64,000 bases of DNA, from NCBI RefSeq assembly GCF_019891175.1, contig NZ_CP072600.1:868001-932000 (forward strand). Reading direction: 5' to 3'. Both the position numbers and the translations under genes were made by a program. This document shows, one piece after another, positions 5,211 through 43,426 of the stretch (within the stretch, counting starts at the first letter, position 1; every line of letters starts with the position of its first letter). The DNA comes from Leptothermofonsia sichuanensis E412 (GTDB taxonomy: Bacteria > Cyanobacteriota > Cyanobacteriia > Leptolyngbyales > Leptolyngbyaceae). The notes beneath the pieces were generated by a model that was not told the DNA's origin, did not search any database, and worked only from the letters and a program-made list of their open reading frames with translations.

Positions 5211-5391
5211 TAGTTCCAGTAGAGCCAGACGCAAATCTGGCTACCACTCCTGAATTCTGAATTTTAAATTTTGAATTCCTCAGAAGGATGACTGAATTCA
5301 GGCTGATTAGCATTCAGCTTGGTGATTTCTGATCATCGATCACGCCCCTCTGCTTCCTCAGATATGTTGCCAAGTCTTTGAGGATCCTTTC

Positions 5392-27943: not shown

Positions 27944-28036
27944 TATAGCGATCCTATCTGGATTGTGAGCAAGGATGCCCCAGGAATCCTTGCTCACAAA
28001 GCCTCTCACTCTCACAACTGATTTAGGACTGCTATA
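27944..28036. repeat. MITE-like element A, copy 2 (93 bp)
   Basis: TATAGCGATCCTATCTGGAT to ACTGATTTAGGACTGCTATA, with a GTGAGCAAGGATgCC / GGAATCCTTGCTCAC central hairpin (one mismatch). It matches the 93-bp copies at 22418-22510 and 58966-59058. Confidence 0.85.
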
Positions 28037-28052
28037 AAGGTTTGGACATGAA

Positions 28053-28101
28053 GCCAGTTTTGCGGGCGATCGCGCTGACTGGCGATCGCCCGCAAACTGG
28101 C
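28053..28101. repeat. Long hairpin built from two HIP1 octamers
   Basis: GCCAGTTTTGCGGGCGATCGC pairs with GCGATCGCCCGCAAACTGGC across an 8-nt loop, leaving one bulged T. It lies just beyond the end of the small secreted protein gene (minus strand) and could act as its terminator. It lacks a T-run. Confidence 0.65.
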
Positions 28102-28154
28102 TCCCCGGAAACTCAGGTTGTATATTAGGGTTGTCCTGAAAACCGGGTGAACGG

Positions 28155-28577
28155 CTACTTGTCGGTTTCCAGGACAATGATGTCCGGGCATCGGACTGGG
28201 GTGAAATGTCCGGGTGGGTTTTCGTTGTAACAGTTATAGGTCCCCCCAGACAGCGACACTTGAACACCGATCTGGTTAATCTGACTCCGGGGTACAAATT
28301 CTCTGGCGCGGGCTTTGCGAGCAATCATCTGGGGGGTCAAACGGGTTCCACTGCTCGACGGTTTTGGCTTGGCAACAATCACGTCGGGACATTTCACTTC
28401 GACCACGGTGCCATCTGGCTTTTTGTCGTAGCACTTATCTCTCTGGAGGTTAACGACAACCAGTTTCCCGGGTGGGGCGATCGGCTCCTGTGCCCGGGCT
28501 ACCAATGCGGGACTTAACAGGAGTACTGGCGCTGCAACCACAGTGGATGCCACCAGGGAAGTGATGCGATAAAGCAT
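28155..28577 (-). CDS. Small secreted protein with a duplicated Cys motif
   Basis: The protein (140 residues from the ATG at 28577) begins with a clear signal peptide (MLYRITSLVASTVVAAPVLL...ARAQ). Its mature part contains the pattern C-Y-(4 residues)-P-x-G-...-V-x-C-P-D-[VI]-I-V twice, in YDKKPDGTVVEVKCPDVIV and YNENPPGHFTPVRCPDIIV. Each copy has two cysteines, which suggests disulphide-stapled repeats in the periplasm. An AAGGAG ribosome binding site at 11 bases upstream supports this ATG over the earlier one. I do not recognise the family. Confidence 0.75.
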   Translation of the reverse strand: MLYRITSLVASTVVAAPVLLLSPALVARAQEPIAPPGKLVVVNLQRDKCYDKKPDGTVVEVKCPDVIVAKPKPSSSGTRLTPQMIARKARAREFVPRSQINQIGVQVSLSGGTYNCYNENPPGHFTPVRCPDIIVLETDK

Positions 28578-28610
28578 GGGACGATCTCCTTGGATAATCA
28601 AACGGTGTTA

Positions 28611-28678
28611 AAAGCCCATTCGGAAACTTCCTGGAATGGTTGCCTGGTTTAGCCGCTTACGGCTTTTGGATGGGCTTT
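28611..28678. repeat. MITE-like element C, copy 3
   Basis: AAAGCCCATTCGGAAACTTC and GGCTTTTGGATGGGCTTT form the inverted termini. It lies between the divergent small secreted protein and Uma2 genes and is the most diverged of the three copies. Confidence 0.7.
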
Positions 28679-28852
28679 AGGCGTGGTCTTCATTATGGAA
28701 GCGATCACCGTTTACGCTCAGTACCCGTGAGTGTACTTTCAGCAGCGTTAGCCGCATCATAGAAATAATGGTGTTGCTGAATAGCCCTATGAATTGAAAG
28801 TCTTCAATTCATACAACGCTCAATTCATACCCAGAATCAGCAACCTTTAGAA

Positions 28853-29476
28853 ATGATTGATGCCCTGGGAAAAATCATGCGCCTTACGGAGAAAACAGCC
28901 GCAGTGCCAACGGATTTAATCTGGCGTTTGAGTGTGGAACAATACCACGCCATGATTCAGGCTGGCATTCTCACAGATGATGATCCGGTAGAACTTTTGG
29001 AAGGATGGCTGGTTGTTAAATTGCCGAAAAACCCACCCCATCGGGTAGCCACCCGTCTGGTTAGAACAGAAATCGAGGAACGTCTGCCATCCGGCTGGTA
29101 TACCGATAGCCAGGAACCAATTACGACAGCAGACAGTGAACCAGAACCGGATGTTGTCGTTGTGCGCGGCGAAACCCGGCAGTACCTCGCTCGTCACCCA
29201 GGACCAGAAGACATCGCATTAGTGGTTGAAGTTGCAGATACAACACTGCAACGCGATCGCACGTCTAAAAAGCGGACCTATGCCAGAGCAGGTATTCTAG
29301 TGTATTGGATTGTCAATTTAGGCGATCGGGTCATTGAGGTTTATACCCAGCCTTCTACGTTAGGTGATCAGCCAGACTATACCCAAAAACAGGAATATGG
29401 GCCATCTGATCTGGTTCCCTTAGTCATTGAGGAGGTTGAAGTGGGTACCATTCCCGTCCAAAGCCTGCTGCCGTAA
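28853..29476 (+). CDS. Uma2 family (DUF820) restriction-endonuclease-fold protein
   Basis: The 207-residue protein belongs to the Uma2 family, a PD-(D/E)XK nuclease fold greatly expanded in cyanobacteria. It shows DPVELLEGWLVVKLPKNPPH, then EPEPDVVVVRG and IALVVEVADTTLQRDRTSKKRTYARAGILVYWIV. The acidic E...D..E-x-A core and the Lys of KK-R-YA look complete. The target is unknown; many copies are thought to be selfish or defence-related. A short coiled-coil gene follows. Confidence 0.9.
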   Translation: MIDALGKIMRLTEKTAAVPTDLIWRLSVEQYHAMIQAGILTDDDPVELLEGWLVVKLPKNPPHRVATRLVRTEIEERLPSGWYTDSQEPITTADSEPEPDVVVVRGETRQYLARHPGPEDIALVVEVADTTLQRDRTSKKRTYARAGILVYWIVNLGDRVIEVYTQPSTLGDQPDYTQKQEYGPSDLVPLVIEEVEVGTIPVQSLLP

Positions 29477-29535
29477 TGCCTGTTTGATAGCCTATTCTGA
29501 AAATAAGGCCCTTTGCTTTTTGGGGAGTACCCGGA

Positions 29536-29796
29536 ATGACCGACGACGAACTGGGAGATTTTTTGGCCCAAATTCTAAATGTCCAGCGAGATTTGCAAGC
29601 AGGGCAACTGAAACTCCAGGAAGGGCATGTGGAATTACAGAAACGGATAGCTAAATTAACAACCAATGTTAACAAGTTAGAGCAGATTGTCCAGCGCCAT
29701 GAGGGATACCATATTGTTAGGTGGCTGAGATTATCTGCGAGGGCAGTGCTGCAGGGCTATTTGTTGGTGTTCAAAGTCAAGTTGCCGCAAGGTTAA
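29536..29796 (+). CDS. Small coiled-coil protein
   Basis: The 86-residue protein has a helical, heptad-rich central region (about residues 10-55: LAQILNVQRDLQAGQLKLQEGH...) and a short hydrophobic C-terminal stretch (AVLQGYLLVFKVKL). It follows the Uma2 gene by 59 bp on the same strand. The start at 29536 follows a TTTTTGGGGAGT context, which is a weak binding site. I do not recognise a family, and a random open frame cannot be excluded. Confidence 0.4.
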   Translation: MTDDELGDFLAQILNVQRDLQAGQLKLQEGHVELQKRIAKLTTNVNKLEQIVQRHEGYHIVRWLRLSARAVLQGYLLVFKVKLPQG

Positions 29797-29949
29797 CTGT
29801 AAGGCGATACTTTGAAGTTATTGGCAAAGCAATTACAGCTTTTTGTAAGGGTCGCATAAATTTATAGTGGCAGCCCAATAAACAGCTACGTATCCAGAAA
29901 CACTGGTGTAAACTGGACAAGGTGTAAAGTAGTACAATTGATTTGTCAT

Positions 29950-30531
29950 GTGAATATCAATCCAAGAGTCATCAGTGGTTCATGGCGGTATGGGGTCGCG
30001 TTAGATTGGCACACTTTATCGAGCGTGCCTCGTAGTGATGGCGGTTTTGATACAACACGTAGCGAAATCGGAGAAGCCCTTTATCAGCTCAAATACCAAT
30101 TTGACCGTAGTAAAATTGAGCCGATTGCTGACGTCGCGGCACAGCAGATTATGTCCTGGAAAGTTTTTCGATACCTGAAGGCAATTATCGCTATACCGCC
30201 ATCCAAATTAGACCGACCATTTCAGCCAGTGCTAGAATTGGCGAAGGCTCTCGGTAGCAAAACCGATTTGCCTGTGCCGGATGATTACCTCATCAAGGTT
30301 AGACAAACGCAAGCGTTAAAGGATATCGAAGATACCGACCTCAGACATCAGCAAATGCAAAATGCCTTCCAAGTCATTGATCAAAGATACTCGCAGGAGT
30401 CCGTCCTATTGTTTGATGATCTTTTTAGGTCAGGCGAAACGCTGAATGCAGTATCCAACGCACTTGTGGTTCAAGGTAATGTGGGGCGTATTTACGTGCT
30501 GACTGTGACGATGACGAGGACAAAGCGATGA
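29950..30531 (+). CDS. ComF-like phosphoribosyltransferase
   Basis: The protein (about 193 residues from the GTG) contains a type I PRTase fold. The PRPP loop is seen in SVLLFDDLFRSGETLNAVSNAL near the C-terminus, and IIAIPPSK marks an upstream strand. The overall shape resembles ComF, but the Zn-finger found at the ComF N-terminus is absent. An alternative TTG start lies at 29938. Its stop overlaps the ATG of the DprA-like gene by four bases (ATGA), so the two are translationally coupled. ComF and DprA both act in natural transformation. Here the pair is a free-standing unit, so a nucleotide-signalling role is an alternative. Confidence 0.72.
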   Translation: MNINPRVISGSWRYGVALDWHTLSSVPRSDGGFDTTRSEIGEALYQLKYQFDRSKIEPIADVAAQQIMSWKVFRYLKAIIAIPPSKLDRPFQPVLELAKALGSKTDLPVPDDYLIKVRQTQALKDIEDTDLRHQQMQNAFQVIDQRYSQESVLLFDDLFRSGETLNAVSNALVVQGNVGRIYVLTVTMTRTKR

Positions 30532-31517
30532 TGCATACAAACAGCTTTGATTGGTTTCGGTTAGCACGAACCAAAGGCATAGGAACCAAATTTCTTTGGG
30601 ATGTTTATGACTTTACAAGTAAAGAATCACTTAGTTTGAGTGATCTACTTATTGATGACAAAATAAATGCCCTCAGCATACCAACTAAATTAAGAACGAA
30701 ATTTGCTTCATCTTTAATTGACCAAGACTATGAAGCTCTTAGTAAGGCTTATGAGCGTCTTGAGCAAAATCGGGTCAAGATACTGCATGTAGAATCCTCT
30801 GATTTTCCTAAAAGACTCAAGCGGTATGGAAGGGAATATGGAATTCCTCCCCTGTTATATGCAAGGGGACATATTCCTCTTGCAAATTCTCAAAGCATTT
30901 CTATTGTTGGTTCTCGAAATGTTGGTGAGGAAGCCCTTTTAATTACATCTGAGTTAGCAAAAGGGCTGGCAAGAGAAGGCTTTAATATTGTTTCTGGTTA
31001 TGCAAAAGGTGTTGACTCCACTGCTCATTTAGGCGCATTAGAAGCAGAGGGAACTACTACAATTGTTCTTAGTTTGGGGATCTTAAACTTTGAAGCTAAG
31101 AAAGACTTTAAACCTCTGTTCTCTCCCTACAACACCCTTGTGCTTTCGCAGTTCAACCCAACGGATAAATGGCTTGCTCGCAATGCAATGGCGCGAAATA
31201 AATTAGTCTGCGCTTTATCAGATGCAGTGATCGTCATAGCTTCTGGACAGGAAATTGACAATCAAGGAAGAATGAGCGGCACTTTTGACGCTGCTAAAAG
31301 TGCAATGGCAATGAACATACCCGTTTTTGTGCTTTCTCCTCAATGCTTTGCTCAACCTCTCGTTGGAAACACTGACTTGATTCAACTTGGTTGTTATGAA
31401 ATTTTGCCAGAAAATGCTATTCAACAGATTCTTTCAAAGTTAGAACGTGAATCAATTGATACAGGTAAACAGCTCAGCAGAGATGTAGTTCAGTTAGAAC
31501 TTCTTCCGTCAGCTTAA
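30528..31517 (+). CDS. DprA/Smf-like (SLOG superfamily) protein
   Basis: The 329-residue protein begins with a helix-hairpin-helix-like start (FRLARTKGIGTKFLWDVY) and contains a Rossmann-like DprA core: ISIVGSRNVGEEALLITSELAKGL, FNIVSGYAKGVDSTAHLGALEAEG and MARNKLVCALSDAVIVIASG. Canonical DprA loads RecA on incoming ssDNA. This one differs in the segment after GTTTIVLSLG, where the usual YPxxN is missing, so it may belong to the wider SMF/DprA-LOG (SLOG) set seen in nucleotide-centred conflict systems. The coding sequence is visibly more AT-rich than its neighbours and free of HIP1 sites, suggesting transfer. An attC-like hairpin starts right after the stop. Confidence 0.8.
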   Translation: MMHTNSFDWFRLARTKGIGTKFLWDVYDFTSKESLSLSDLLIDDKINALSIPTKLRTKFASSLIDQDYEALSKAYERLEQNRVKILHVESSDFPKRLKRYGREYGIPPLLYARGHIPLANSQSISIVGSRNVGEEALLITSELAKGLAREGFNIVSGYAKGVDSTAHLGALEAEGTTTIVLSLGILNFEAKKDFKPLFSPYNTLVLSQFNPTDKWLARNAMARNKLVCALSDAVIVIASGQEIDNQGRMSGTFDAAKSAMAMNIPVFVLSPQCFAQPLVGNTDLIQLGCYEILPENAIQQILSKLERESIDTGKQLSRDVVQLELLPSA

Positions 31518-32036
31518 CGCCACCTAACAACCCGGTTGGAGCGGACTAGCGAAAGATCTTGGTTGGGTTCAAAGGTTGCCGGTAGCCGCTCAACCGGAAC
31601 GTTAGCAAGAGTGAACGGCTGGATCTTCAAGCGCAAATGCTGGATTTACAACAGCGGGTCAGACGTCTGGAACTACGAAACAGCGATGGGAATTGACTAA
31701 CGCCAGAACTAACGATGCCTCTAATCATAGATCATCTTTCGTTGTGATCAGTTTCCTCCAGAACTAAATGCACCTCAATCTACCAGTCTTAGTATTCTTG
31801 TACCGATCAATTGGTTGTCATCAAAGATCATTGGCGGAGAATTTCCAGCCTGCAACCAATATCTTTACAAAAGATCATATTTTAGTTTGGCCTGGATATT
31901 GCATACTCCTGGGATTTTTGAACCAGAAGTCAATGGGACTGATCAGAGAGCAGCACCTATGACTTCTATACCCAGTCGAAACATAAGCAAACGAGCAACT
32001 GCCTCAGAGTTTCTGTGCAATACCAGGATCACCACA
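31518..32036. other. Intergenic region with attC-like hairpin and gene remnant
   Basis: The region starts with an attC-like site (31519-31608). Next comes a stretch encoding a coiled-coil C-terminus that ends in a stop (31619-31696, beginning LDLQAQMLDLQQRV). This looks like the tail of a lost gene. The rest is AT-rich and probably carries the promoter of the sigma-like gene. An ORF start at 31815 or 31959 would extend that gene into this region. Confidence 0.45.
31519..31608 (+). other. attC-like recombination site (candidate)
   Basis: ACCTAAC at 31522-31528 (an RYYYAAC R-box) is matched by GTTAG at 31601-31605 (GTTRRRY-like). Inside lie CCGGTTGGAGCGG (31532-31544) and CCGCTCAACCGG (31586-31597), which pair except for one extra base. 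That single unpaired base and the overall length of about 88 bp are the hallmarks of an integron attC. It begins two bases after the stop codon of the DprA-like gene, the expected place. No integrase or attI is in the window. Confidence 0.4.
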
Positions 32037-33791
32037 ATGGCTAAGGAAACTGAGTTAAATGATCATGAAAAGGCAATTATTAGCGAATTTTCAACGTTTT
32101 ATAGTCCAATTGAGCTTGGGGGCTATAGAACACCTGCCTGGAGCAACCGCGATCGCCGACTGGAGAATGTTCTGCAAACTCTAGTACAAAATGCACCACC
32201 CGTTGGGATTACAACCTGGGCACGCTATTTTTTGGTTTTCTCCTGGCAACAGAATCCTCAATTGCTGAGTTGGTTGGGTTTAGTACCGGGAAGTTCGCTC
32301 AGTCAGATCTTTGATCAACTCGCGCAGGTCGCTCCAGTTCCCAACCGAGAGCTTTCCCAACTGCATCGGCATCTGGAAGCGCGGTGCGGCGATCGTCAGG
32401 TTCAGCAATTTCTCAATACTGACACCAATTTAGCGAATAAATTCCTGGTGGCACACTTACAGAAACCCTCTTGGTTTGCCGCACGCTGGTTTTACAACAG
32501 TCGTCTGGTCATGTCCAGATTGGGGGAACGCTACTCGCTGAATGATTGTTTTCAGATTGCGAATGAAGCGTCTGCTAATCCAGCAAAATTGCTCCAGAAC
32601 TTTCAACTGGCTCAGCAGGATATCTCGATCAAGACCTATGCTGAAAAAGTATTGCGCGGAATTATTCGCTCAACGATCAATCAACACGTCGAAACGCAGC
32701 ACCATATTTCGCCCTGGGGTGTGCTGCGTTATGTTGCAAAACGAGAACTGGTAGAGGCATTACAGGCCGCAGGATATCAAGATTCTGATATTAAGAGTTA
32801 TGGGTTACTCTGGCATAGTTTCAAGGAGATTTATCAAACTAAGCAAACCAATCTAAAGCAGCTACCAGAACCAACAGAACAGGAAATTCAACAAATTTGC
32901 GATCGCTATAACCAGCGACGGAAAGAATTTCAACTTGAATCACCCATGCAGTCCCATCTGGTCCTGAGTGGGTTACAGCGTTGTGCCCAGGTAATCCAGA
33001 ATTATCGAAGCCTGGATTCTGTGTATGGCAGGCTTTTGGACGAGGCAAATAATCCTGAAGCCTCTGATCCCTTAGAGCAATTAATCCAATATCAGCGAGC
33101 AATGCAAGCAGAGTGTCTAAAGACTCTAGCAAAATCAGTCATTGCAACCCTGTTTCCCGAATTACCTGAAGTCACACAAGTGATTCTAAAGCTCTATTTA
33201 GGATTGGAATTTAATCAGACTGAAATTCTTGGGCTGATTGGACACCAGTTCAACTTGCAGAAACAGTATCAGGTATGCCGCAAGAAAGATGGCTATAAGC
33301 GAATAGTTCTACGAAGGTTTATCCAAGAACTCAATCAGCAGTATTCCGATCTATTGCCAGAAATCTTGACAGAGAAGACAACACCGGATGAAACGCTTCA
33401 GCAGCTACAGCAATTCCTGGACATTCACTTAGAGCAATTCTGCAAAGCCAGTTTTGCAGAGATCTTATATCAGACTTTGAACAATTTATTGAGTCACTAC
33501 AACGGACAATTCAGTGCCCCGATCGATTTGGTTACGGTCTTCCATTGGCTCTACCATGACCAGTTTGGTCAACGGCCTCCCACTGTATACCAGTCCTCTC
33601 CAGCCCCAATTGACTTCAGTTCAGCGGAGATCATCGACCACTTAAAGATGACCTTGAAATCCGCGATCGCTGAGTCACTCACAGTGGATTTCAATCAGTG
33701 TGCTTCAACTGAGCATCGATTCCAGAGTTTTTTGGAATGGTGGTTACAAAATCATGTTGAACAGAACAATCCGTCACAAGCAGGAGAATAG
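32037..33791 (+). CDS. Sigma-70-like protein linked to DUF1822
   Basis: I place this protein (584 residues from the ATG at 32037) in the cyanobacterial family of sigma-factor-like proteins next to DUF1822. A region 2-like stretch (DISIKTYAEKVLRGIIRSTINQHVE, SPWGVLRYVAKRELVEALQAAG, YGLLWHSFKEIY) and a region 4-like stretch (PEVTQVILKLYLGLEFNQTEILGLI ... KQYQVCRKKDGYKR) are visible. Homology to true sigma factors is a family-pattern inference. Alternative starts exist at 31959 and 31815. The stop lies four bases before the DUF1822 gene, whose ribosome binding site overlaps this end, so the two are one operon. Confidence 0.6.
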   Translation: MAKETELNDHEKAIISEFSTFYSPIELGGYRTPAWSNRDRRLENVLQTLVQNAPPVGITTWARYFLVFSWQQNPQLLSWLGLVPGSSLSQIFDQLAQVAPVPNRELSQLHRHLEARCGDRQVQQFLNTDTNLANKFLVAHLQKPSWFAARWFYNSRLVMSRLGERYSLNDCFQIANEASANPAKLLQNFQLAQQDISIKTYAEKVLRGIIRSTINQHVETQHHISPWGVLRYVAKRELVEALQAAGYQDSDIKSYGLLWHSFKEIYQTKQTNLKQLPEPTEQEIQQICDRYNQRRKEFQLESPMQSHLVLSGLQRCAQVIQNYRSLDSVYGRLLDEANNPEASDPLEQLIQYQRAMQAECLKTLAKSVIATLFPELPEVTQVILKLYLGLEFNQTEILGLIGHQFNLQKQYQVCRKKDGYKRIVLRRFIQELNQQYSDLLPEILTEKTTPDETLQQLQQFLDIHLEQFCKASFAEILYQTLNNLLSHYNGQFSAPIDLVTVFHWLYHDQFGQRPPTVYQSSPAPIDFSSAEIIDHLKMTLKSAIAESLTVDFNQCASTEHRFQSFLEWWLQNHVEQNNPSQAGE

Positions 33792-33795
33792 AGCT

Positions 33796-35049
33796 ATGGC
33801 CAGCCTAATTAATTTGAGTATGGAACTGGAAATTTCGCCCCTCAGTCAAGAAACCGCCAACCGCGAGGTCGGTGCAACCACTTATTCTTATCCTGCGGCT
33901 CGCGATCGCGCCTATATCAATACACTTTGTCTGAATGCCCTGTATACCTGGCTCCAGGAAGAGCCAGATCTGCCAGGAACTCCTCAAATCTGGCTAGAAG
34001 CCAGCGATCGTCCGGCGATTTGGGAATACGTCAATGGGAGTCTGATCACGGTTGGAGACACCCGACTGGCGATCATTCCCAGTGTTGTCTTAAGCGAAGC
34101 GGATCACCCAGCGGAGTTGCGAGTGGAACAGGAATGGGTCGATATCCCAGATTGGGCTGCCCATCACTATTTGATGGTACAGGTGAATCCAGAAGGCGGC
34201 TGGCTAAGACTATTGGGCTATGCCACTCACCCCCAACTAAAACAAACTGCACGCTACGACGCCCTCGATCGCACTTACAGTTTGTCCACGGAGCAACTGA
34301 TTCAAGAGATGAGTGTGCTGTGGACAGCGCGGGAATTATCACCCAATTGGTCTCCAGCAGTGGCCTCTCTTCCCAGCCTAACCACAGTGCAAATCGATGG
34401 GTTAATCCAACGTCTGAGTCAGCCTTCCTACTCTCCCCGCCTGGAAATACCTTTTGAGCAATGGGCAGCGTTCATGACGGATTCCACCAGACGGCAGCAA
34501 CTTTACCAGCAGCGACTGAACCTGGCACTCAACAACATGACTCAACACATTCCTGGGGCTGTCCCCGCTCAAATCAACTTGAGTCACTGGGTGAAGAGCC
34601 TGACCGAAGCAGGTTGGCAAGTCGTGCGAGATTTGAATCTACTCTCTGGCACTTCGTTTAGCATGGCGACTGCACGGAGTGGAATGCCATCTGAGCCACA
34701 ACCGCCTGACCAACCCTATTGGAAAACATTCGAGCTTGGAGGATATGAGGTGATGCTGCTGATTGCTAGGGAAGCCGAGGTATCAGCGAAGAACAGTTCA
34801 GCACAGGCGGGTGAGATCGATATTGCGATCGCCGCCAAGATTAAAAGTACTACCCCATTACCCCATGACCTTCAGATACAAGTATCCTTTACCGACGAAA
34901 ACGGCAATGTGGACAGGCTAGACCAGCAAATCCTGGCGAATCAGCCCGATCAGGTCGTTGAAGTTCCGTTGTTAGGTACACCGGGTGAACCCTTCAGCAT
35001 TACTCTCAGATTAGGAGAACATAGCAGAACAGAACATTTCCAGGTTTAA
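33796..35049 (+). CDS. DUF1822 family protein
   Basis: The 417-residue protein starts MASLINLSMELEISPLSQE and matches the cyanobacteria-specific DUF1822 pattern: N-terminal RDRAYINTLCLNALYTWLQEE, then SLITVGDTRLAIIPS and EQEWVDIPDWAAHHYLMVQVNPEGGWLRLLGYATH. The function is unknown. DUF1822 proteins are repeatedly encoded beside sigma-like proteins and CHASE2 or caspase genes, which hints at a regulatory role. The frame is open 32 codons upstream. The ATG at 33796 is chosen because CAGGAG lies ten bases before it, at the end of the preceding gene. Confidence 0.85.
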   Translation: MASLINLSMELEISPLSQETANREVGATTYSYPAARDRAYINTLCLNALYTWLQEEPDLPGTPQIWLEASDRPAIWEYVNGSLITVGDTRLAIIPSVVLSEADHPAELRVEQEWVDIPDWAAHHYLMVQVNPEGGWLRLLGYATHPQLKQTARYDALDRTYSLSTEQLIQEMSVLWTARELSPNWSPAVASLPSLTTVQIDGLIQRLSQPSYSPRLEIPFEQWAAFMTDSTRRQQLYQQRLNLALNNMTQHIPGAVPAQINLSHWVKSLTEAGWQVVRDLNLLSGTSFSMATARSGMPSEPQPPDQPYWKTFELGGYEVMLLIAREAEVSAKNSSAQAGEIDIAIAAKIKSTTPLPHDLQIQVSFTDENGNVDRLDQQILANQPDQVVEVPLLGTPGEPFSITLRLGEHSRTEHFQV

Positions 35050-35444
35050 CAGAATACGGCAACAAATTGCAACACGGTTTTTCAGTACTCTTACTGACTA
35101 ATCGATCTGGAATATGCTACTGTTAGTTTAATAAATTTCCATCCTTTTCAATTCGTGAGCAGGAATTGCGATCGTGGTTATGTATGGCAAAGTATCCTGA
35201 TCGTGCTGTTCCTCTAAGTTTCCCTGGTATTGATTTCCATTGATGGCTTGCGCTGCGTCATTTTTCTCAGGTTTTCACCGAGTATGAGGTGAGGGTAGGA
35301 AAGAAAATGGTTGTTTCGTAAAAGCCTCCAGGTTCAGTCGATTAGCCTGTAGCAAGGTTGCGCTAGTAACACTCAGCACGATGACCCAATCCATTCCCTC
35401 CAGATTACGCTAGAGGGTTATCCATTCGCTGTACCGCTTGCCTT
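35050..35444. other. Intergenic region before the caspase gene
   Basis: This spacer of about 400 bp separates DUF1822 and the caspase gene, both on plus. It is moderately AT-rich and probably holds a second promoter. I see no RNA gene, repeat family member or terminator hairpin. Confidence 0.4.
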
Positions 35445-38400
35445 ATGAGAGTTGAGTCACTGTACGAGTTGAAAAATGGTCGAGCTAAGCTGCGAATGCT
35501 GCTAGTCGGTGTGGATTACTACCAGGCACCCCAATTAGTTCCACTTAGCTATGCGGTATCGGACTGTCGTGAACTGGCTGAGGCTCTGACCCGTGCGACA
35601 CAAGGCTTTCCTGAAGCCACGATTGATGTCTATTACGGCTCGGCGGATACTGAACCGCTCCAGCAAGAGACGATTCATCAAGGTTTGGATCGACTGCTTA
35701 CGTCTGTTGAATCTAAGGATACGGTTCTGATTTATTTTTCGGGACATGGTGTCGTTGATGAAGCGACGCAAAAACTTTACCTTTGCTTAACTGCAACCCA
35801 ACTGGATGACCTGGCCAATACAGCCTGGGATGTGCAGACCATGCTGAAGCGGTTGCAAACCTCAGGGGCTGGCAAACAAGTGATGATCATAGACTCCTGT
35901 TACAGCGGCAATGTGGGCGCTCAGTCTCGTGGAGGTACTGCGCTGTTACAGCCGCGCTCAATCGTTCAAACTCCCATCCCAGATCCTGCTGACTTTGCGC
36001 CCAAGATGCAGGAAACGTTGCGGGACTATGCCAGTCAAGCAACGGCTGAAAATCGCCATTTCCATGCGCGGTTGCAAACCTCAGGGGCTGGCAAACAAGT
36101 GATGATCATAGACTCCTGTTACAGCGGCAATGTGGGCGCTCAGTCTCGTGGAGGTACTGCGCTGTTACAGCCGCGCTCAATCGTTCAAACTCCCATCCCA
36201 GATCCTGCTGACTTTGCGCCCAAGATGCAGGAAACGTTGCGGGACTATGCCAGTCAAGCAACGGCTGAAAATCGCCATTTCCATGCGTTGTTGTCCTGCG
36301 ATGTGCAACAGTTGTCGTGGGAGTTGGCGGATTTGGGACATGGGATCTTTACCTATCATTTGATTCAAGGAATAGAGGGTGGTGCAGCAGACCCAAGAGG
36401 ACACATCACGATTGATAAACTGTATGACTATGTTTTTGAACACACGGAGTTGAGTGCACGGAAAAGTGGTAAAGTCCAAACTCCCCGGCATATTAAAGCG
36501 GCGGCTCAACAGATTGTGATTGGGGTTAGCGATCGCTTCTCTGCAACGGATGACGGACTTTTGAGTTCCGGGAGTAATGCTCTTTTCTTTCGGGAAGAGC
36601 AATATAGAAAAAATGTGTTGCGGGCACTAGAAGATAGTTATCCCCTCGATCCAAATCTGCATCAGAAACTACGTGCCCTTGCAGATAAGTTGTTCTTGTT
36701 TTCTACAGAGGTGGCACGGATTGAATCTGAAACCATCCAACGCTTTGAAAGGTTGTTAGAGAGCTACAAACAACGGGCAATTCGGGTGCTGCATTCTGGT
36801 TATCCTCACCATACCGATCCCTTTGTCCAACTCCAGCAAAATGTTGGGTTGCGATCGCACATCCTCAAGCCGCTTGAAAATCAGGCTTACGCCCTGTTTG
36901 AAGAGCATAGCCAACGGTACAAAGCGGCTTTTGCTAAAGCCCTTTATCAGCAACCGGAAATAGATGGATCAATCCGGCAGCAGTTACGACAACTGCAAAC
37001 TGAGTTGGATCTGAATGATGCTGCGATCGCCGACTTTGAAACAACAATCCGAGAGCAGTTCGAGCAAGATCGGCAAACCTATCGCACCGCCTACAGCGAC
37101 GCAATTCACCATCAACGAACACCTGACGTAACCCCGCTACGTGACCTCCAGCAGCGATTGGAATTGGGTGATGCAGTAGTCGAGGCAATTCAAACCGAGG
37201 CAATGGCGGTTTGTTGGGATCGACAGCAGCAATATCGGCAAGCCTTTGCGAATGCTATTCATCAACAACTCACGCCTGACCTGGCAACGCTACGCCAGGA
37301 CGGGGAAGGGTCGGGACTAGGGATTGCTCTATTGGAGGCGATTGAAGCGGAAGAGAATGAACGCTGCACCCAAGATAAACAGCAATACCAACAACAGTTT
37401 GCGGCTGCAATTCGGCAACAGGAGCACCTCAGCAATAGCACCCAGTATGCCCTATTGCAAGTCCAACAGTCCTTGGGGTTTAGTTCCACGGTTGCTGAAG
37501 CATTGGAAGAAATTGAAGTGACGGCCTGTGAACACGATAAAGGGGTTTATCGTCAACAGTTTGAGGTCGCGATCCATCAGGAACATCCGCTGAGCCAGCT
37601 AACTCAGTCCAAATTGGATCAACTACAAGAACGGTTGGGTCTGGGAGATGAGTTGGTGCGATCGCTGCAACAAGAGGCTACAGAGGGCTTTGAGAAAAAT
37701 AAGCAGCGCTACCTGCTGGAATTAGGCATTTGTATTCGGCAGCATTATCCGATTGGACCCAGGGATCGCCAGCGCCTGAGTGAATTGCAACATCGCTTGG
37801 GGTTGGCAAATGAGATCATCGATAGCTTGACCAGCGAGGCGATCGCACTCATAGATCGAGACAAAGCAACCTATCAGCAGCACTTTGACAGCGCAATTCG
37901 ATCCAGCTATCCACTGACCGAAGCCCAACGGCTAGAGTTAGACGCACGGCATCGAGAGTTAAACCTGAATGATGCTCTTGTAGAAACCATTGAACGAGAA
38001 CTGACTGATGCCCTGGAGCGCCATCGCCAGGATTACTGTGATGCCGTTGTCACGGCAATTCACGAACATTTTCCGATTACACCAGAGGCACGAGAGCGGC
38101 TGCAACACCTGCAACAGGATTTTCGTTTTAGTGATACCCTCATTGCTGAGATTGAAGCACAGGCAATCGCGGCTCACCAGTCTCGCCAGGAAAACCTGCA
38201 AGCCTATACCCAAGAATTTGAACGAATCCTGCACCAGTACAACCTGCTGGAGTCCGAGAAGATTTCTGTCAGCGATCGCGCCCATTTGGAACAATGCCGC
38301 ATCCGGTACGGATTGAGCCAGTCAGACACCGCCAATCTTGAGAACCAAAGGATCGAAACCTATCAGATTGTCTTGCAACGTTATAAAGCCACCTTATTTC

Positions 38401-38747
38401 AGACCCTCCAGCGCTATCCACCAGATGCAACCCTATTGGATCCGGTTCCGATCCCCCCTGAAATTAATTCTGAAATTGCCTGCATTATTCGTGCTCAGGT
38501 AACCCAAAAGTATGAGTTGGCTGTGGAACAATACATCCAGGAGTTTAACGCATCCCTCTATTCTACAGGCTCCATCAGTGCGCCGACCCGCCAGCGGTTA
38601 CAGCAAATCCAGCACAAACTGAATCTCGATGATTCGGTGATTACAGCGATTGAACATCAAGAAACCCAAACGTTTGAAGCCAAAGTACAGGAATATGAAC
38701 GGAAACTTCAGGAAATTCTGGAAAAACGACAACAGTCCGATTCTTGA
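35445..38747 (+). CDS. Caspase-family protease with duplicated catalytic-Cys segment and helical repeat array
   Basis: The frame codes for 1100 residues. An N-terminal C14 caspase-like domain starts MLLVGVDYYQ and carries the catalytic His in YFSGHG (His101) and Cys in DSCYSG (Cys152). An exact 219-bp tandem duplication then repeats the Cys segment, giving a second DSCYSG at residue 225. The p10-like part LSWELADLGHGIFTYHLI follows. Residues from about 375 hold about twelve degenerate 54-residue helical repeats (YxxxFxxAIxxxxP...LxxLQxxLGLxDxxxxxIE). The frame ends in the middle of the next repeat; the continuation sits in the +1 frame downstream. Caspase-like proteases in cyanobacteria are candidate cell-death or stress proteases. 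It follows sigma-like and DUF1822 genes. Confidence 0.85.
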   Translation: MRVESLYELKNGRAKLRMLLVGVDYYQAPQLVPLSYAVSDCRELAEALTRATQGFPEATIDVYYGSADTEPLQQETIHQGLDRLLTSVESKDTVLIYFSGHGVVDEATQKLYLCLTATQLDDLANTAWDVQTMLKRLQTSGAGKQVMIIDSCYSGNVGAQSRGGTALLQPRSIVQTPIPDPADFAPKMQETLRDYASQATAENRHFHARLQTSGAGKQVMIIDSCYSGNVGAQSRGGTALLQPRSIVQTPIPDPADFAPKMQETLRDYASQATAENRHFHALLSCDVQQLSWELADLGHGIFTYHLIQGIEGGAADPRGHITIDKLYDYVFEHTELSARKSGKVQTPRHIKAAAQQIVIGVSDRFSATDDGLLSSGSNALFFREEQYRKNVLRALEDSYPLDPNLHQKLRALADKLFLFSTEVARIESETIQRFERLLESYKQRAIRVLHSGYPHHTDPFVQLQQNVGLRSHILKPLENQAYALFEEHSQRYKAAFAKALYQQPEIDGSIRQQLRQLQTELDLNDAAIADFETTIREQFEQDRQTYRTAYSDAIHHQRTPDVTPLRDLQQRLELGDAVVEAIQTEAMAVCWDRQQQYRQAFANAIHQQLTPDLATLRQDGEGSGLGIALLEAIEAEENERCTQDKQQYQQQFAAAIRQQEHLSNSTQYALLQVQQSLGFSSTVAEALEEIEVTACEHDKGVYRQQFEVAIHQEHPLSQLTQSKLDQLQERLGLGDELVRSLQQEATEGFEKNKQRYLLELGICIRQHYPIGPRDRQRLSELQHRLGLANEIIDSLTSEAIALIDRDKATYQQHFDSAIRSSYPLTEAQRLELDARHRELNLNDALVETIERELTDALERHRQDYCDAVVTAIHEHFPITPEARERLQHLQQDFRFSDTLIAEIEAQAIAAHQSRQENLQAYTQEFERILHQYNLLESEKISVSDRAHLEQCRIRYGLSQSDTANLENQRIETYQIVLQRYKATLFQTLQRYPPDATLLDPVPIPPEINSEIACIIRAQVTQKYELAVEQYIQEFNASLYSTGSISAPTRQRLQQIQHKLNLDDSVITAIEHQETQTFEAKVQEYERKLQEILEKRQQSDS

Positions 38748-39990
38748 GAGTGATCGCAATGAATTACGCGAATTACAACAGTCTCTCGGTCTCTCGGATG
38801 AGGTGATTGCCACGATCGAGAAACGAACCCTGGAGACACAAGGGCTGGTTGCCGATTCAACGGATTCTGTCTTTAGGGGACTGCCAAAACCGAGCCAGTT
38901 TCAACAATTTGTTACCCTGTGGCTTCGTTCCTCGTCCCAGGACCAAGACTGTTCCGGCGGCGCTCAAACCACGACAGGTCATCAGGCAGAGGTATTCACT
39001 CAAACCTCAGAGTCACTAGCGTCCGAACCCCAAATCAGCCCGCCTCCGGACTCGGATGAAATTACGGCTCCCATTGCTGTCGCCGCGATCGCAGCGGATC
39101 CTCAAACAACACCATCTGATTCTTTCCCTCAATTCAATCTGATCTGGCGGCATTTCCAGGACACGCGCGATCGCCTGCTGGCCCATCTGCACCCCCTGCC
39201 CCCCCAGGCTGTGAAGAGTACTGCGATGGCGGGGGCGATCGCCACAGTATCCAGCATTGGCTTACTAGCCTACCACCAGCTTCTTGATCCCTCAAAATCA
39301 TCTACGGTGTTAGAGCCTATTCTGCTCACTGCGATCGCTCCCAACTTCCAACCCATCTTATCCAGCGTATTTCTGGCTGAAGCCGAACTCTTAGCGAAGA
39401 AGTATCAATTGAGAGCCGCGATCGATCTTTTGGGTCAGATTCCCGAACATGACCCGGCCTATCCACGTGCAAAACAACTTCTCAACCAGTGGACAACGGA
39501 GATTCTGAACATTGCTGACAAGGACTACCAGGCTGCTAACCCCGATGCTCTAAATCGAGCTAAGGCCATCTTGCAAACCATTCTACAAGATAACCCCCGA
39601 CGCAAAGACGCACAGGCATTGATTTGGTCATACACAACTCAGTGGGATGCAGACAAAACCCTCATCGGCGCTATCAAAGATGCCCGCAAACAAGGAAACT
39701 GGGAATTGACACTCGATAAAGCGGTTCAGATAAAACACGCTTACTGGAAGAGACAAGCTGACAGCGATATTGAATGGGCCAACCGACAAAAGCAAGAGTA
39801 TCAATCGTGGTTAGCAACCCAACGTCAACGCAGCATCTCTTCAACAGGGTCAACTCAATCAGAATCCCACAACCCACCCAGTTACAGTTCGCCCAGTTAC
39901 AGTTCGCCGCGCCCCAACCCTCCCAGCTATAGCCAACCTTTTAGAACCCAATGGCGACGAGGAGAGCCTACTACAAGTGGAGAAGGATAG
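38727..39990 (+). pseudogene. C-terminal part of the caspase gene, displaced by a frameshift
   Basis: This frame continues the same helical repeat directly (ESDRNELRELQQSLGLSDEVIATIEKR). A Pro/Ser-rich linker, a single TM segment (MAGAIATVSSIGLLAYHQLL) and a helical TPR-like region (AEAELLAKKYQLRAAIDLLGQI) come next. A Ser/Pro-rich tail (NPPSYSSPSYSSP...) ends it. Removing one A from the A5 run at 38722-38726 fuses it to the upstream frame, giving a single protein of 1514 residues. I therefore treat the two frames as one split gene. The break may be real or a sequencing error. The TM would anchor the protease-scaffold to a membrane. Confidence 0.75.
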
Positions 39991-40065
39991 GTGAAGAATC
40001 AGCCGACATTCTAATGGATGGATCTAATACGGTCTAATCGAATATGCGGTCATGACGTGTGTCCT

Positions 40066-40380
40066 TTACCGCCGTTCAGACAAATATATTCGAATTGCTC
40101 CGTCTTTTCTGCCAACAGCAAAAGCTTTTCCATTGGGACTGAAAGCAACTGCCGTAACTTCACTTGGTTGTTCCTTAAGTTTGCCAATTTCTTCTGCTGT
40201 CTCAATCCGCCACAACTTGACTTGTTTATCAGCCCCACTACTGATGAGTAGCTTCCCGTTGGGACTAAAGGCGATCGCCTGAACTCGCTGCCGATGCCCC
40301 ATTAGAGTGCGGGGTGGCTCAGAATTTTGCAGAGACCACAACTTAATTGCTTTATCACCAGATGCACTAGCCAGAACCCT
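40066..40380 (-). pseudogene. WD40 protein gene, 3' fragment (IS3-interrupted)
   Basis: This fragment reads LASASGDKAIKLWSLQN..PRTLMGHRQRVQAIAFSPNGKLLISSGADKQVKLW and ends with IRIYLSERR. It is the C-terminal end of the WD40 gene whose start lies at 41672-42504. An IS3 element with a 5-bp duplication (ACCCT) separates the two parts. Removing the element and one copy of the duplication restores the frame at FSPDGRVLASASGDK without a gap. Confidence 0.85.
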
Positions 40381-40441
40381 AAAGTGTACCCCATTGTCTA
40401 GACAGCAAACATAAAACTTTAAGATAGAATCTCCTCCTGGT

Positions 40442-41314
40442 TCATTTGTTCTTTTGTGTTTGCTCTAATACATAGTTATCATCTCCTGTACTGAAATGCA
40501 CTGCGGATGGCACTTGATAATTCAACGCCTGATGTAACCGCTGATGATTGTAAAACTCGAAGTAGTTCCCCAATCCCTCCATCGCAACCGCGACCGTTGA
40601 ATAATCTTTGAGATACACCTCCTCATATTTGACACTGCGCCAAAGCCGTTCGATAAAGATGTTGTCGAACGCTCGTCCTTTGCCATCGTGAGAGATCCGA
40701 ATATCCCTGCTTTCCAGGTAGCTCGTGAACGGATGGCTTGTGAACTGGCTGCCCTGGTCGGAGTTGAAGATCACAGGCTGTCCGAGTTGTAAGGCTTGTT
40801 CCAGTGCCACCAGGCAGAAGTGGATATCCATTGTGTTAGACAACTGCCACGAGAGAACATAGCGACTGTACCAATCAATGATCGCAACGAGATACACAAA
40901 GCCCCTGGCAAGCCGAATATAGGTAATGTCAGTACTCCAAACTAAATTCGGCGCATCAATCGTCAATCCTTTGAGCAGATAGGGATAACGTCGTGCATTA
41001 TCCGCAGGAATCGTCGTGCGGGGACGAGGATAAATCGCTTCGATGCCCATTTGCCGCATCATTCGTGCTACCCGCTTATGATTGACTACTTCGCCCTGCG
41101 TTCTCAGCCACGCTGTCATGCGGCGAATGCCATAAAACGGCGTTTTGGTGTACTGAGCATCAATCAGATTCATCAGATGCAACTCGTAAGCGTCTACGGC
41201 AACGGGCTTGTAGTACCAACTGGAGCGGGCTAAATCGAGCAATTCGCATTGACGTGCCACACTAATGTCGGAATGATTTGGCTCCACCAGTTGGCGTTTA
41301 TGATCGAGCGACAA
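40442..41314 (-). CDS. IS3-family transposase OrfB (DDE)
   Basis: The 290-residue protein is an rve-domain integrase-like transposase. The catalytic acidic residues are visible in WSTDITYIR, NSDQGSQFTS and IERLWRSVKYEE (D-D-35E spacing). It overlaps OrfA by 17 bases. The frameshift signal is the A9 run near 41326-41334 (T-run on the plus strand), so the active product is expected to be an OrfAB fusion. Nothing looks truncated; the element may still be mobile. Confidence 0.93.
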   Translation of the reverse strand: MSLDHKRQLVEPNHSDISVARQCELLDLARSSWYYKPVAVDAYELHLMNLIDAQYTKTPFYGIRRMTAWLRTQGEVVNHKRVARMMRQMGIEAIYPRPRTTIPADNARRYPYLLKGLTIDAPNLVWSTDITYIRLARGFVYLVAIIDWYSRYVLSWQLSNTMDIHFCLVALEQALQLGQPVIFNSDQGSQFTSHPFTSYLESRDIRISHDGKGRAFDNIFIERLWRSVKYEEVYLKDYSTVAVAMEGLGNYFEFYNHQRLHQALNYQVPSAVHFSTGDDNYVLEQTQKNK

Positions 41315-41588
41315 TGCCAGATTTTTTTTTCAACCAGTCCAACTCGACTTTGAGTTGCCCAATCTGCTGATACAGGCTTGCCGTTAAGTCCTCCTGTTCC
41401 TTCTGGCTTTGGGCACGCCGGGATGAGAAGATGCCGGGCAGTTCGTCAAGGACTTGTTTCTTCCACTGGTGGATCTGCGTCGGATGTACCCCGTGTTCGG
41501 TTGCCAGTTCGTTCACCGTTTTCAGTCCTTTGATCGCTTCGATAGCGACCTTGGCTTTGAATTCTGCACTGTGTTGTTTGCGCTGCAT
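41298..41588 (-). CDS. IS3-family transposase OrfA
   Basis: The 96-residue protein has an N-terminal helix-turn-helix (KAKVAIEAIKGLKTVNELATEHGVHPTQIHQWKKQ) of the HTH_Tnp_1 type and a C-terminal leucine zipper-like part (LYQQIGQLKVELDWLKKK). It binds the IS ends. It ends in the A-run where the frameshift into OrfB occurs. Confidence 0.93.
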   Translation of the reverse strand: MQRKQHSAEFKAKVAIEAIKGLKTVNELATEHGVHPTQIHQWKKQVLDELPGIFSSRRAQSQKEQEDLTASLYQQIGQLKVELDWLKKKSGIVARS

Positions 41589-41671
41589 ACCTTGATTGTC
41601 TCCGTAGTTCGACTGGTTCTGCGGGCAGCGACTCTATCTTATTCCTCTGTCTAGTTTTCGGGGTACATCAT

Positions 41672-42504
41672 ACCCTACCATCCGGACTGAATGCTACTGA
41701 AGTAACGTTGATTTGGTGTCCCGTAAGACTACAGCGTCGCCTTCCACTGTTGGCATCCCAAATTTGAATGGACCCATTAAGATTTGATCCACCCACTATC
41801 AACTTACTATCAGGACTAAAAGCAATGGAATAAAGTTCTTGCTTTTCTGTTGCCGAAATTGATGCCAAGTCTATCAGTTTGCTATTTCTTATAACCCAAC
41901 GTTTAATCAATCGCTTTGCTCCCCCTGCACTAGTTCCACCACTAGCAAGCATCTTGCCATCTGGACTGAATTGAATGGACGTTGTTCTTAATTGCATTTT
42001 GGAAATATCCAGATGTCTTTTTTCACCTCTATGGATTACCCCATTTAAATCCCAAAGCCTAACCTCACCTTTATAGTTTCCATCTGCAATAAATCGATTA
42101 TTTGGGTCAACTGCAACAGTGGTAATCCAGTCTTCACTTCCCCGTAGCTCAATCGATTCCCAATGAGTTGAATCCCAATTTCGCCACACTTTAACAGTTT
42201 TGTCGTGGCTACCACTAATCAGAAATTTCTCAGATATAAACACAATTGATGAGACTTGATCTGAATGTGCCTTATATTCCTCCCAGGGGATCTTGCTTTG
42301 TATTGCTTCCCAATCAGGATCAGAGGTTATTGGCGGAACACGTCTAGAAACAAGCGGAAATTTGCACTCTTGAAACTGGCTATTTGAAGAGTTTTGTGCT
42401 GAACTTTCCAGCGATCCTGAAAGATTAAAAGGGGACACACTACACAAAATTGGTGTTACTGCAAGAATGCTGAGCAGCGGAATGAAACCTTTCTTCAAAA
42501 CCAT
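41672..42504 (-). pseudogene. WD40 protein gene, 5' fragment (IS3-interrupted)
   Basis: The fragment starts with a signal peptide-like segment (MVLKKGFIPLLSILAVTPILCSV, perhaps with a lipobox Cys) and contains four WD40 repeats, among them ISGSHDKTVKVWRNW and IVGGSNLNGSIQIWDANSG. It stops within a repeat at FSPDGRV, exactly at the IS3 junction. The intact gene would end at 40066 and give a protein of about 370 residues. Transcription runs toward the caspase gene region. No promoter can be named. Confidence 0.85.
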
Positions 42505-42869
42505 AGTTTTTGTGTATCACAACGTTGGACGACATTGATTATTTGTCTTCTCAAGGTTGACCTAAAAAGAGGTAGTTGCCTGAGATAATCTCACTTTTCC
42601 TCTGTCGGGCAAACCCTGCCGAATTCTCAGGTTCGGCATTCTACTTGTACTTAGAATACCCAGTAAACTTTCAGGCACTTCCTTAGGGAGAAAATCTTAA
42701 TTATGTAGGAGATGTGTTGCATGATGCCATTAATCGCAAGCCATAAGTCAGTACATACGGAACAGTTCAATACCCGACAGAAGGCTGGTTTGATGGCTTA
42801 GGTATTGCTCTGGACGGGATGTGTTGGCAGCCACGACGCTGCTTGTTCCCCTACTGGAGGTAGAAAATT
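42505..42869. other. Divergent intergenic region
   Basis: The spacer separates the WD40 gene (minus) from the GRDP-like gene (plus) and should hold both promoters. It has moderately AT-rich sequence. I see no repeats, RNA or terminator. A GGAGGT ribosome binding site sits at its right end. Confidence 0.4.
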
Positions 42870-43424
42870 ATGTTACTAAGAGAACAGGTTACGTCAGTAG
42901 ATACCGTTACGTTTTTGCATAAGCTGAAACAGTTGGATTTTGGACCACTCGCCCATATCTTGATGTGCTATGGCTGGAGCTATGTCCAAATTAGCCACGC
43001 GATCGCCCGTTATACATTGTTTCTGTTGCTGATGCATCTGTATCCCAACGCCAACCTGGTTCCCACCTGGGAAATCGATCAGGTTTGGCATCACCATATC
43101 CTGGACACCAGCAAATATATGGCAGACTGCCACACCTTGTTTGGTCGGTATATGCACCATTTTCCCCATGCGGGTGAGCGGGATGAGCGCGATCACCAGC
43201 AACTATTACTCTCCTTTGACCAGACCCAGCATTTGTTTGAACACCACTTTGGCATGGCACTGGCGGATAACGTACCCTTTAATGGTGGTGAATCGGTTGA
43301 AATTGCTCTGTCCCAGGGTGCTACTGGTTGTCATTTGAAACAACCGGGACCTACCCGGCGTCCCAGGATCAATGTTGATCTGCAATGGCCGATTGATTCT
43401 CTAATGTCCTCATTCAGCGGTTGA
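42870..43424 (+). CDS. GRDP-like protein (PF07173 type)
   Basis: The 184-residue protein contains the GRDP-like signature EIDQVWHHHILDTSKYMADCHTLFGRYMHHFPHAG, a His-rich segment that could bind metal. It resembles the N-terminal domain of plant glycine-rich domain proteins; bacterial relatives are small and uncharacterised. A GGAGGT site seven bases upstream supports the start. Its end overlaps nothing: the convergent STAND gene ends three bases later. Confidence 0.75.
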   Translation: MLLREQVTSVDTVTFLHKLKQLDFGPLAHILMCYGWSYVQISHAIARYTLFLLLMHLYPNANLVPTWEIDQVWHHHILDTSKYMADCHTLFGRYMHHFPHAGERDERDHQQLLLSFDQTQHLFEHHFGMALADNVPFNGGESVEIALSQGATGCHLKQPGPTRRPRINVDLQWPIDSLMSSFSG

Positions 43425-43426
43425 TT

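Follow-up and report, generated by a model that had tools for sequence, protein, structure and literature searches.

A C14 caspase variant of a recurrent cyanobacterial sigma factor/DUF1822/protease module, with a candidate cleavage site in DUF1822

The cyanobacterium Leptothermofonsia sichuanensis E412 carries, within the stretch of DNA analysed here (the window; 64,000 bases, positions 868001-932000 of a one-contig, 6.43-Mb genome), three consecutive genes on the + strand encoding a sigma-70-like factor of the extracytoplasmic function (ECF) type, a DUF1822 protein and a C14 caspase. The module is real, recurrent and known in outline, and the copy in the window is a C14 variant with a caspase gene that is probably broken. 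We give about even chances to the reading that the locus is the C14 form of a widespread cyanobacterial sigma/DUF1822/protease switch, in which cleavage of DUF1822 would free the sigma factor. DUF1822 would keep the sigma factor inactive, and a trigger would act on a sensor-like part joined to a caspase-superfamily protease (mostly CHAT-CHASE2; here C14 with helical repeats). The protease would then cleave DUF1822 after Arg294, in a flexible linker, and the freed sigma factor would transcribe target genes, making the sigma factor and not the protease the output. The parts of the locus that matter most for this reading are as follows (positions in the window; ORF, open reading frame):

32037-33791, + strand: sigma-70-like (ECF-type) factor, 584 aa; from the ORF, NCBIfam, an alignment and the predicted fold
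33796-35049, + strand: DUF1822 protein, 417 aa; from Pfam and the predicted model, with a sigma-like gene upstream in 175/192 relatives
34675-34677, + strand: codon of DUF1822 Arg294, the candidate cut site (P1); a near-invariant basic column of the linker
35445-38747, + strand: C14 caspase domain followed by helical repeats, the ORF being ended by a frameshift; from the ORF, Pfam and comparison with relatives

The ORF coordinates agree with the first-pass annotation of this DNA, which had described three same-strand genes in this order with the first two 4 bases apart, and a GGAGAA stretch precedes the ATG of the DUF1822 ORF. No RNA family reached its gathering threshold in 28000-44000, and consensus promoters and terminators in 31500-35500 numbered 3 and 2, below the shuffle means of 5.5 and 3.7.

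The pairing of the first two genes is widespread. Among 192 distinct DUF1822 ORFs (197 collapsed to 192, ORFs below 250 aa being left out), 175 are immediately preceded by a sigma-like gene in the same orientation, recognized in 128 cases by a hidden Markov model (HMM) of the window-type sigma factor and in 47 by an HMM made from two short ORFs, one of which matches sigma70-ECF at E 6e-6; none was found in the other 17. The gene directly downstream encodes CHAT at 131 of the 192, a C14 caspase at 8 and neither at 53. The CHAT gene follows at a median gap of 24 bp, and when 32 next-downstream proteins were scanned, picked mostly by size from 74 listed, CHAT was present in all 32 and CHASE2 in 27. 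Among the loci listed, none has CHAT and C14 both directly downstream. Recurrence of DUF1822 with sigma-like genes across cyanobacterial genomes, as the first-pass annotation had stated, is thus borne out, and the association with C14 that it proposed to check holds for one clade plus one locus, CHAT being the usual partner. That clade emerges from a tree of 112 DUF1822 proteins, built from one DUF1822 (the best) per locus, without ORFs below 280 aa and without three duplicate loci. It consists of the window and loci L071-L075 and L112 (Shimodaira-Hasegawa-like approximate likelihood ratio test 94, below the 95 mark), and all its members have C14 directly downstream; the one further such locus lies outside it. 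Because the clade stands within a tree where CHAT-CHASE2 is usual, its C14 gene looks like a swap of caspase-superfamily proteases beside a constant sigma/DUF1822 pair. In a second DUF1822 clade, of 22 members, CHAT is the immediate downstream neighbour at 2 loci and lies nearby at 3, the corresponding numbers for C14 are 1 and 4, and at 12 loci no protease of either kind was found. The host genome itself has four DUF1822 genes, and the three outside the window are each followed by CHAT-CHASE2, two of them then by DUF928. The sigma position of these three loci is held by ORFs of 216, 219 and 445 aa. The 216-aa ORF matches sigma70-ECF (E 6e-6) and the 219-aa ORF a SigK model (E 0.004); for the 445-aa ORF NCBIfam offers nothing at E <= 0.01, but our own sigma HMM matches it at 2e-14.

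DUF1822 occurs in at least 48 of 58 genomes (host included) and in 0 of 14 control genomes among the matches listed, from which 80 further DUF1822 places were also taken. C14 matches at E <= 1e-6 sum to at least 270 over the 58 genomes, about 5 each, and a same-strand C14 gene within 1.6 kb downstream is therefore expected in well under 1 of 192 loci; judged from the sequences, the gene association exceeds chance. The figure of 8/192 is no unbiased rate of C14 linkage, because loci L071-L080 were picked for shared or near sigma and caspase hits. Among 80 DUF1822 loci picked without regard to caspase, the best matches to the window's DUF1822 family alignment, C14 is linked in 3, and two of these are L071 and L072. 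Across 58 loci, evolutionary distances co-vary for DUF1822-sigma (r 0.82), DUF1822-CHAT (0.82) and sigma-CHAT (0.62), the permutation maxima being 0.155, 0.202 and 0.180, and shared descent alone can give such co-variation. The named loci with related DUF1822 genes are, by title, cyanobacterial except L112, and the best match lies in a metagenome-assembled genome (MAG) of the Leptolyngbyaceae. L112, a sigma/DUF1822/C14 locus of cyanobacterial type, comes from a MAG that bears the name Tatlockia (Legionellaceae), and is either a mis-binned contig or a transfer.

The identity of the first gene product comes mainly from its relatives and its predicted fold. Pfam yields no sigma family for the window protein even at E <= 10 (three weak unrelated rows), and the NCBIfam sigma70-ECF model (TIGR02937) matches it at E 6e-8 with 32.5 bits, below the cut-off of 42.9. 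At E <= 0.01, the same model matches 18 of the 20 members of the sigma alignment, window included, and Pfam Sigma70_r4_2 matches 14 of the 20. The predicted model is confident (mean predicted local distance difference test, pLDDT, 88.7; 62 sequences). The first 8 Foldseek rows are sigma factors at E 0.013-0.14, so that no single row is significant, and 49 of 50 rows from the VIA fold search are sigma factors by title (Z 7.1-8.1), an identification of the chains that is partly our own assumption. The N-terminal sigma2 domain of SigE superposes on residues 129-218 with a root-mean-square deviation of 2.1 Å over 77 residues; over whole chains the deviation from sigma factors is high because the domains are arranged differently. 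The sigma2 fold at ~129-218 is accompanied by a region-4-like helix-turn-helix at ~376-437, placed from the alignment, and by long additions at both termini. A sequence comparison with solved structures gave a single match, to a ribosomal protein at E 0.86, and so no credible relative. The predicted model supports the first gene encoding a sigma factor with sigma2 and sigma4 of the sigma-70 ECF family. The earlier sigma-70-like label accordingly stands on fold and on region 4 in relatives, the curated TIGR02937 cut-off being missed by the window protein, and the comparison with regions 2 and 4 that had been suggested returned the sigma2 fold and not an unrelated structure.

The second protein was correctly assigned from the start, matching Pfam PF08852 (DUF1822) at E 6e-56; NCBIfam gave no match. 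Its predicted model (mean pLDDT 82.3; 65 sequences) comprises an alpha/beta N-terminal domain, a low-confidence linker at ~250-302 with pLDDT < 50 at 287-302, and a C-terminal beta-sandwich, an architecture unlike TPR, so that DUF1822 as a TPR protein was not supported. Foldseek returned nothing at E <= 0.001. With VIA, residues 19-185 gave NhoI/Hjc nucleases, which we take to be of the PD-(D/E)XK class, in 5 of the first 6 rows (Z 6.5-7.3), and residues ~305-417 gave immunoglobulin-like domains, including the sensor domain of the anti-sigma factor RsgI4 (Z 6.0). Since Z of ~7 is in the range that the tool calls common, both matches were kept as a lead, and a confident known fold for DUF1822 was dropped for want of a significant match. 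Residues 19-185 may form a derived, perhaps inactive nuclease-like domain. Csx30 was not among the rows listed in the DUF1822 fold searches. We propose, from the genetic pairing and the distance correlation, that DUF1822 is an anti-sigma factor, and further that it is the substrate of the protease.

A near-invariant Arg/Lys in the linker of DUF1822 is the candidate cut site. The column of Arg294 holds R in 110 and K in 2 of the 112 DUF1822 proteins, and R in 182 and K in 2 of 192 in the larger alignment (184/192 basic), the next most basic linker column being 49% basic. Arg294 sits in the 287-302 stretch of lowest confidence, and the residue after it is mostly small or polar (S 58, G 16, Q 14, T 10 of 112). 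Cyanobacterial orthocaspases cut after basic residues, according to the available parts of two reports (PMC6426788; PMC7935541). The residue might instead be kept for contact with the sigma factor, or with the DUF1822 core on folding, which we consider somewhat unlikely. The low pLDDT may stem from a thin alignment, and Trp265 (107/112) and Trp274 (108/112) in the same low-confidence region are also conserved, but the spacing on either side of Arg294 (11-36 residues from Trp274, 5-101 to residue 310) is unusual for a packed contact, and both replacements in the 112-row alignment are Lys. There is also a pattern at the residue preceding the candidate site: Ala stands before Arg/Lys in 8/8 loci with C14 directly downstream, 3/5 with C14 nearby and 0/72 with CHAT downstream (7/8, 3/5 and 3/127 in the larger alignment), and a post hoc hand count over fetched loci found Ala-Arg in 14/16 relatives with a strong window-type C14 versus 3/42 others. 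Because seven of the eight loci belong to one clade, we treat this as an exploratory observation only.

The direction of the proposed switch differs from that of the first-pass annotation, which had seen a signal-to-protease module; a protease acting as sensor and trigger, with the sigma factor as output, fits better. The protease is placed at the input because CHASE2 is fused to it in 27 of the 32 proteins scanned. A reading nearer to the earlier one would make DUF1822 a co-activator or adaptor for the sigma factor and the protease the output, the sigma factor raising protease and sensor and so leading to proteolysis or cell death. The downstream position of the protease gene, with the short median gap of CHAT, would allow it to belong to the transcribed output. 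However, the CHASE2 fusion argues for the input side, the promoter-like motif described below lies upstream of none of the protease ORFs, and a co-activator role would not explain why a flexible linker keeps an almost invariant Arg; we regard this alternative as unlikely. Another possibility, after Kaur et al. 2021, is that the protease activates itself by autoproteolysis, with the sigma factor as a coupled output and DUF1822 no substrate. It has the standing of a published proposal (PMC8195603, in the part of the article available), and the C-terminal parts do differ between loci (CHASE2, nSTAND with WD40, helical repeats), but it leaves the conservation of Arg294 and the near-constant sigma/DUF1822 pairing unexplained, and we judge it quite improbable.

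A promoter-like motif before sigma genes also speaks for the proposed switch. An 8-mer search upstream of these genes found CTGCATAA in 17 of 97 non-redundant regions, where the maximum of any 8-mer in 10 shuffles was 8; GCGATCGC, the common cyanobacterial HIP1 repeat, was likewise enriched. The motif TGCATAA-N15/16-CC[CG]A lies upstream of 26/169 sigma genes, 8/707 other ORFs and 0/178 protease ORFs, counts in which the loci are partly related and the controls are mechanical ORFs of >= 250 aa from the same loci. It is found before 26/123 sigma genes of the long type and 0/46 of the short type, and where TGCATAA is followed by CC[CG]AT the spacer is 16 in 21/24. In 12 genomes chosen for the motif, TGCATAA-N15/16-CCCAT has 98 sites versus 13 reversed, each genome having at least one by choice, because it was chosen for the motif in its sigma operon. 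The corresponding counts are 23 versus 6 in 25 other genomes and, for the 16-spacer form, 44 versus 16 in 145 genomes drawn from the class, of which only one encodes a sigma factor closely related to that of L114 (E 1e-100, at a cut-off of E <= 1e-40) and has 2 sites. Across the genome sets the motif therefore follows a single lineage of long-type sigma factors, though this may also be no more than a lineage of genomes. In the C14 clade, L073, L074, L075 and L112 have TGCATAA before their sigma genes. The window has a match scoring 12.7, to be set against 200 letter shuffles of the matched stretch with a mean of 4.9, a 95th percentile of 10.1 and a maximum of 15.0:

31894-31935, + strand: promoter-like motif of related sigma genes, matched weakly ~140 bp upstream of the window's sigma ORF; score 12.7

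Among the 19 ORFs found behind sites in Cyanobacteria bacterium UBA11372, ten picked for interest encode a protein kinase, two Nif11 peptides, an RTX-repeat protein, a TPS-domain protein, a trypsin, a GH18 chitinase, a pyridoxal phosphate (PLP) decarboxylase, a subtilase and a DUF928 protein. In one genome the sites form clusters ahead of Nif11, TPS, RTX and protease genes. Other genomes have mixed genes downstream of the sites, and some sites lie inside ORFs. As a separate observation, locus L303 (G072 contig 334) has at ~5000-8300 a row of Nif11-type peptide genes with motif copies (two peptides were scanned), near TPS-domain and RTX-repeat proteins, a possible secreted-effector or peptide island.

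Several results weigh against the proposed switch. The 395-bp gap between the DUF1822 and caspase ORFs makes co-transcription of the caspase gene less sure than that of the first two genes. No protease stands directly downstream at 53 of the 192 loci, of which only a part are at contig ends. The fold searches gave no confident match of DUF1822 to any known anti-sigma factor. The Arg294 column is non-basic in 8/192 proteins (3 gaps, 5 other residues), and CHAT is downstream in 4 of these 8 loci. The idea that Ala-Arg tracks a C14 gene elsewhere in the genome, predicted beforehand for 11 further genomes, failed: a window-type caspase (E <= 1e-20) is present in 11/13 genomes, including 8/9 predicted to be without it and 2/2 predicted to have it, the L112 and L152 genomes carrying no prediction. 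On the side of the motif, sigma genes are also preceded more often than controls by the half-site in reverse complement (24/169 vs 51/707), and the 25 other genomes divide into 15 with DUF1822, holding 15 sites, and 10 without, holding 8, with no excess per genome. The host genome has 2 sites of the motif and is not enriched, and the motif as that of a regulon of the window's own sigma factor was not supported.

The state of the window copy is a question apart from the function of the module. The caspase ORF matches Pfam PF00656 at E 6e-16 over residues 19-331 (59.2 bits against a gathering score of 21.4), with HG at 101, DSC at 150 and a duplicated DSC at 223; score and predicted His/Cys dyad place it in Peptidase C14. 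No sequence relative with a solved structure was found for it at E <= 0.01. The ORF halts at 38747, and its repeat series resumes one frame over, so that no intact frame spans the full architecture in the window; the "giant caspase" first described as a single gene at 35445-39990 is split by the frameshift into 35445-38747 and 38650-39990. Three features record the damage:

35849-36287, + strand: block with the catalytic cysteine doubled, in frame, by a perfect tandem duplication of 219 bp; from the sequence and the caspase comparison
38690-38760, + strand: stretch with the reading-frame shift, the repeat series running on in the next frame; from the ORF list and relatives
38650-39990, + strand: second-frame remainder of the caspase, with the last repeat, a weak hydrophobic segment, a TPR-like stretch (sub-threshold) and a Pro/Ser-rich tail

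The duplication repeats the DSCYSG active-site block within the caspase domain, and two DSCxS blocks occur in none of the other 19 caspase rows compared (17 distinct loci). At the relative locus L071, caspase, repeats, hydrophobic segment and tail form one 850-aa frame, whose tail is related to the window's second ORF (E 1.3e-14). The best 19-residue hydropathy values, 1.56 and 1.36, both fall in the second frame; hence, of the caspase with a transmembrane anchor that had been proposed, the C14 domain is upheld and the anchor is only a weak one. The frameshift together with the perfect duplication means that the gene is damaged or misassembled and makes caspase function in this genome doubtful: it is probably broken, and this copy may no longer work. 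The window might then hold a dead remnant, a caspase pseudogene beside the two genes that are left, or an assembly error, and we put this only a little short of even. The two lesions and the single-frame relative in L071 speak for it; against it, the duplication keeps the reading frame, both catalytic residues (His and Cys) are retained, and a repeat without mismatches could be of recent origin or artefactual.

Caspase homologues of cyanobacteria have been discussed mostly as cell-death proteases, and few of their substrates are known. A conserved neighbour with a near-invariant basic linker residue makes substrate, cut site and transcriptional output testable. If the proposed switch is right, cyanobacteria use many of their CHAT proteases and some of their C14 ones for signalling, to free sigma factors, and DUF1822 gains a function. 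A wider claim, which we hold tentatively and rate below even, is that the DUF1822 family constitutes a large class of anti-sigma factors that has gone unrecognised, activated through cleavage by caspase-superfamily proteases after the near-invariant basic residue. It would be a widespread, non-CRISPR counterpart of Craspase signalling, with CHAT and C14 interchangeable and a regulon that in one cyanobacterium includes Nif11, TPS, RTX, subtilase, trypsin and chitinase genes.

The surroundings of the locus contain further genes. Just upstream on the same strand, 28853-31517 encodes a Uma2 protein, a 197-aa ORF without a Pfam match and a DprA-like protein. Beyond the locus, a transposase pair (HTH_Tnp_1 + rve) at 40442-41588 (- strand) stands between WD40 ORFs at 40066-40341 (-) and 41668-42504 (-), and the position of this two-ORF pair looks as though a WD40 gene had been interrupted by an insertion sequence.

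The predictions of the cut site and the motif are new, neither being described in any title or opening of an abstract listed from the literature searched, which omits most subscription papers, and the gene trio has already been reported in outline. The neighbourhood was named by Kaur et al. 2021 (PMC8195603), who, in the part of the article available, describe EACC2-caspase proteins with variable C-termini including CHASE2, find that most of the TRADD-N-independent neighbourhoods additionally contain genes for an ECF sigma factor and DUF1822, and suggest activation by autopeptidase action, with a transcriptional output by way of the sigma factor. The window likewise has adjacent ECF sigma, DUF1822 and caspase genes, and in both cases the pair stands beside a caspase with a variable C-terminus. 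The N-terminal EACC2 is absent from the window protein, as judged by the C14 match beginning at residue 19, and in the DUF1822-adjacent caspase relatives C14 likewise begins near the N-terminus. Kaur et al. call DUF1822 a TPR protein, whereas the model here has an alpha/beta domain and a beta-sandwich, and cleavage of DUF1822, proposed here, is not proposed in that part of their text.

By analogy, and without a claim of kinship, the DUF1822 switch would parallel type III-E Craspase, where, in the available part of the report, the CHAT protease Csx29 (TPR-CHAT) cuts a sigma inhibitor, the components being Csx29, Csx30 and CASP-sigma (PMC10028731). Shared are a caspase-superfamily protease, a sigma inhibitor (proposed here) and an ECF sigma factor encoded together. 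The NCBIfam model CAS_III-E_sigma is matched by 10 of the 20 sigma-alignment members (E <= 0.01), and other sigma models match more of them. The trigger proposed here is a sensor domain, whereas there it is an RNA-guided complex. ECF54 sigma factors, proposed to be protease-regulated, likewise have genes near those for CHAT or other proteases, as far as the available text goes (PMC8999054).

With the EACC1-caspase described in the accessible part of PMC7159879, the window protein shares an N-terminal caspase and matches NF047832 at E 3.5e-39; its 134.5 bits fall below the cut-off of 140, a score that the internal duplication may have lowered, and the gene upstream is DUF1822, not EACC1. Further counterparts are the cyanobacterial CHAT-CHASE2 loci, some with DUF928, which have the same sigma/DUF1822 pair; in the window clade, C14 and helical repeats take the place of CHAT-CHASE2.

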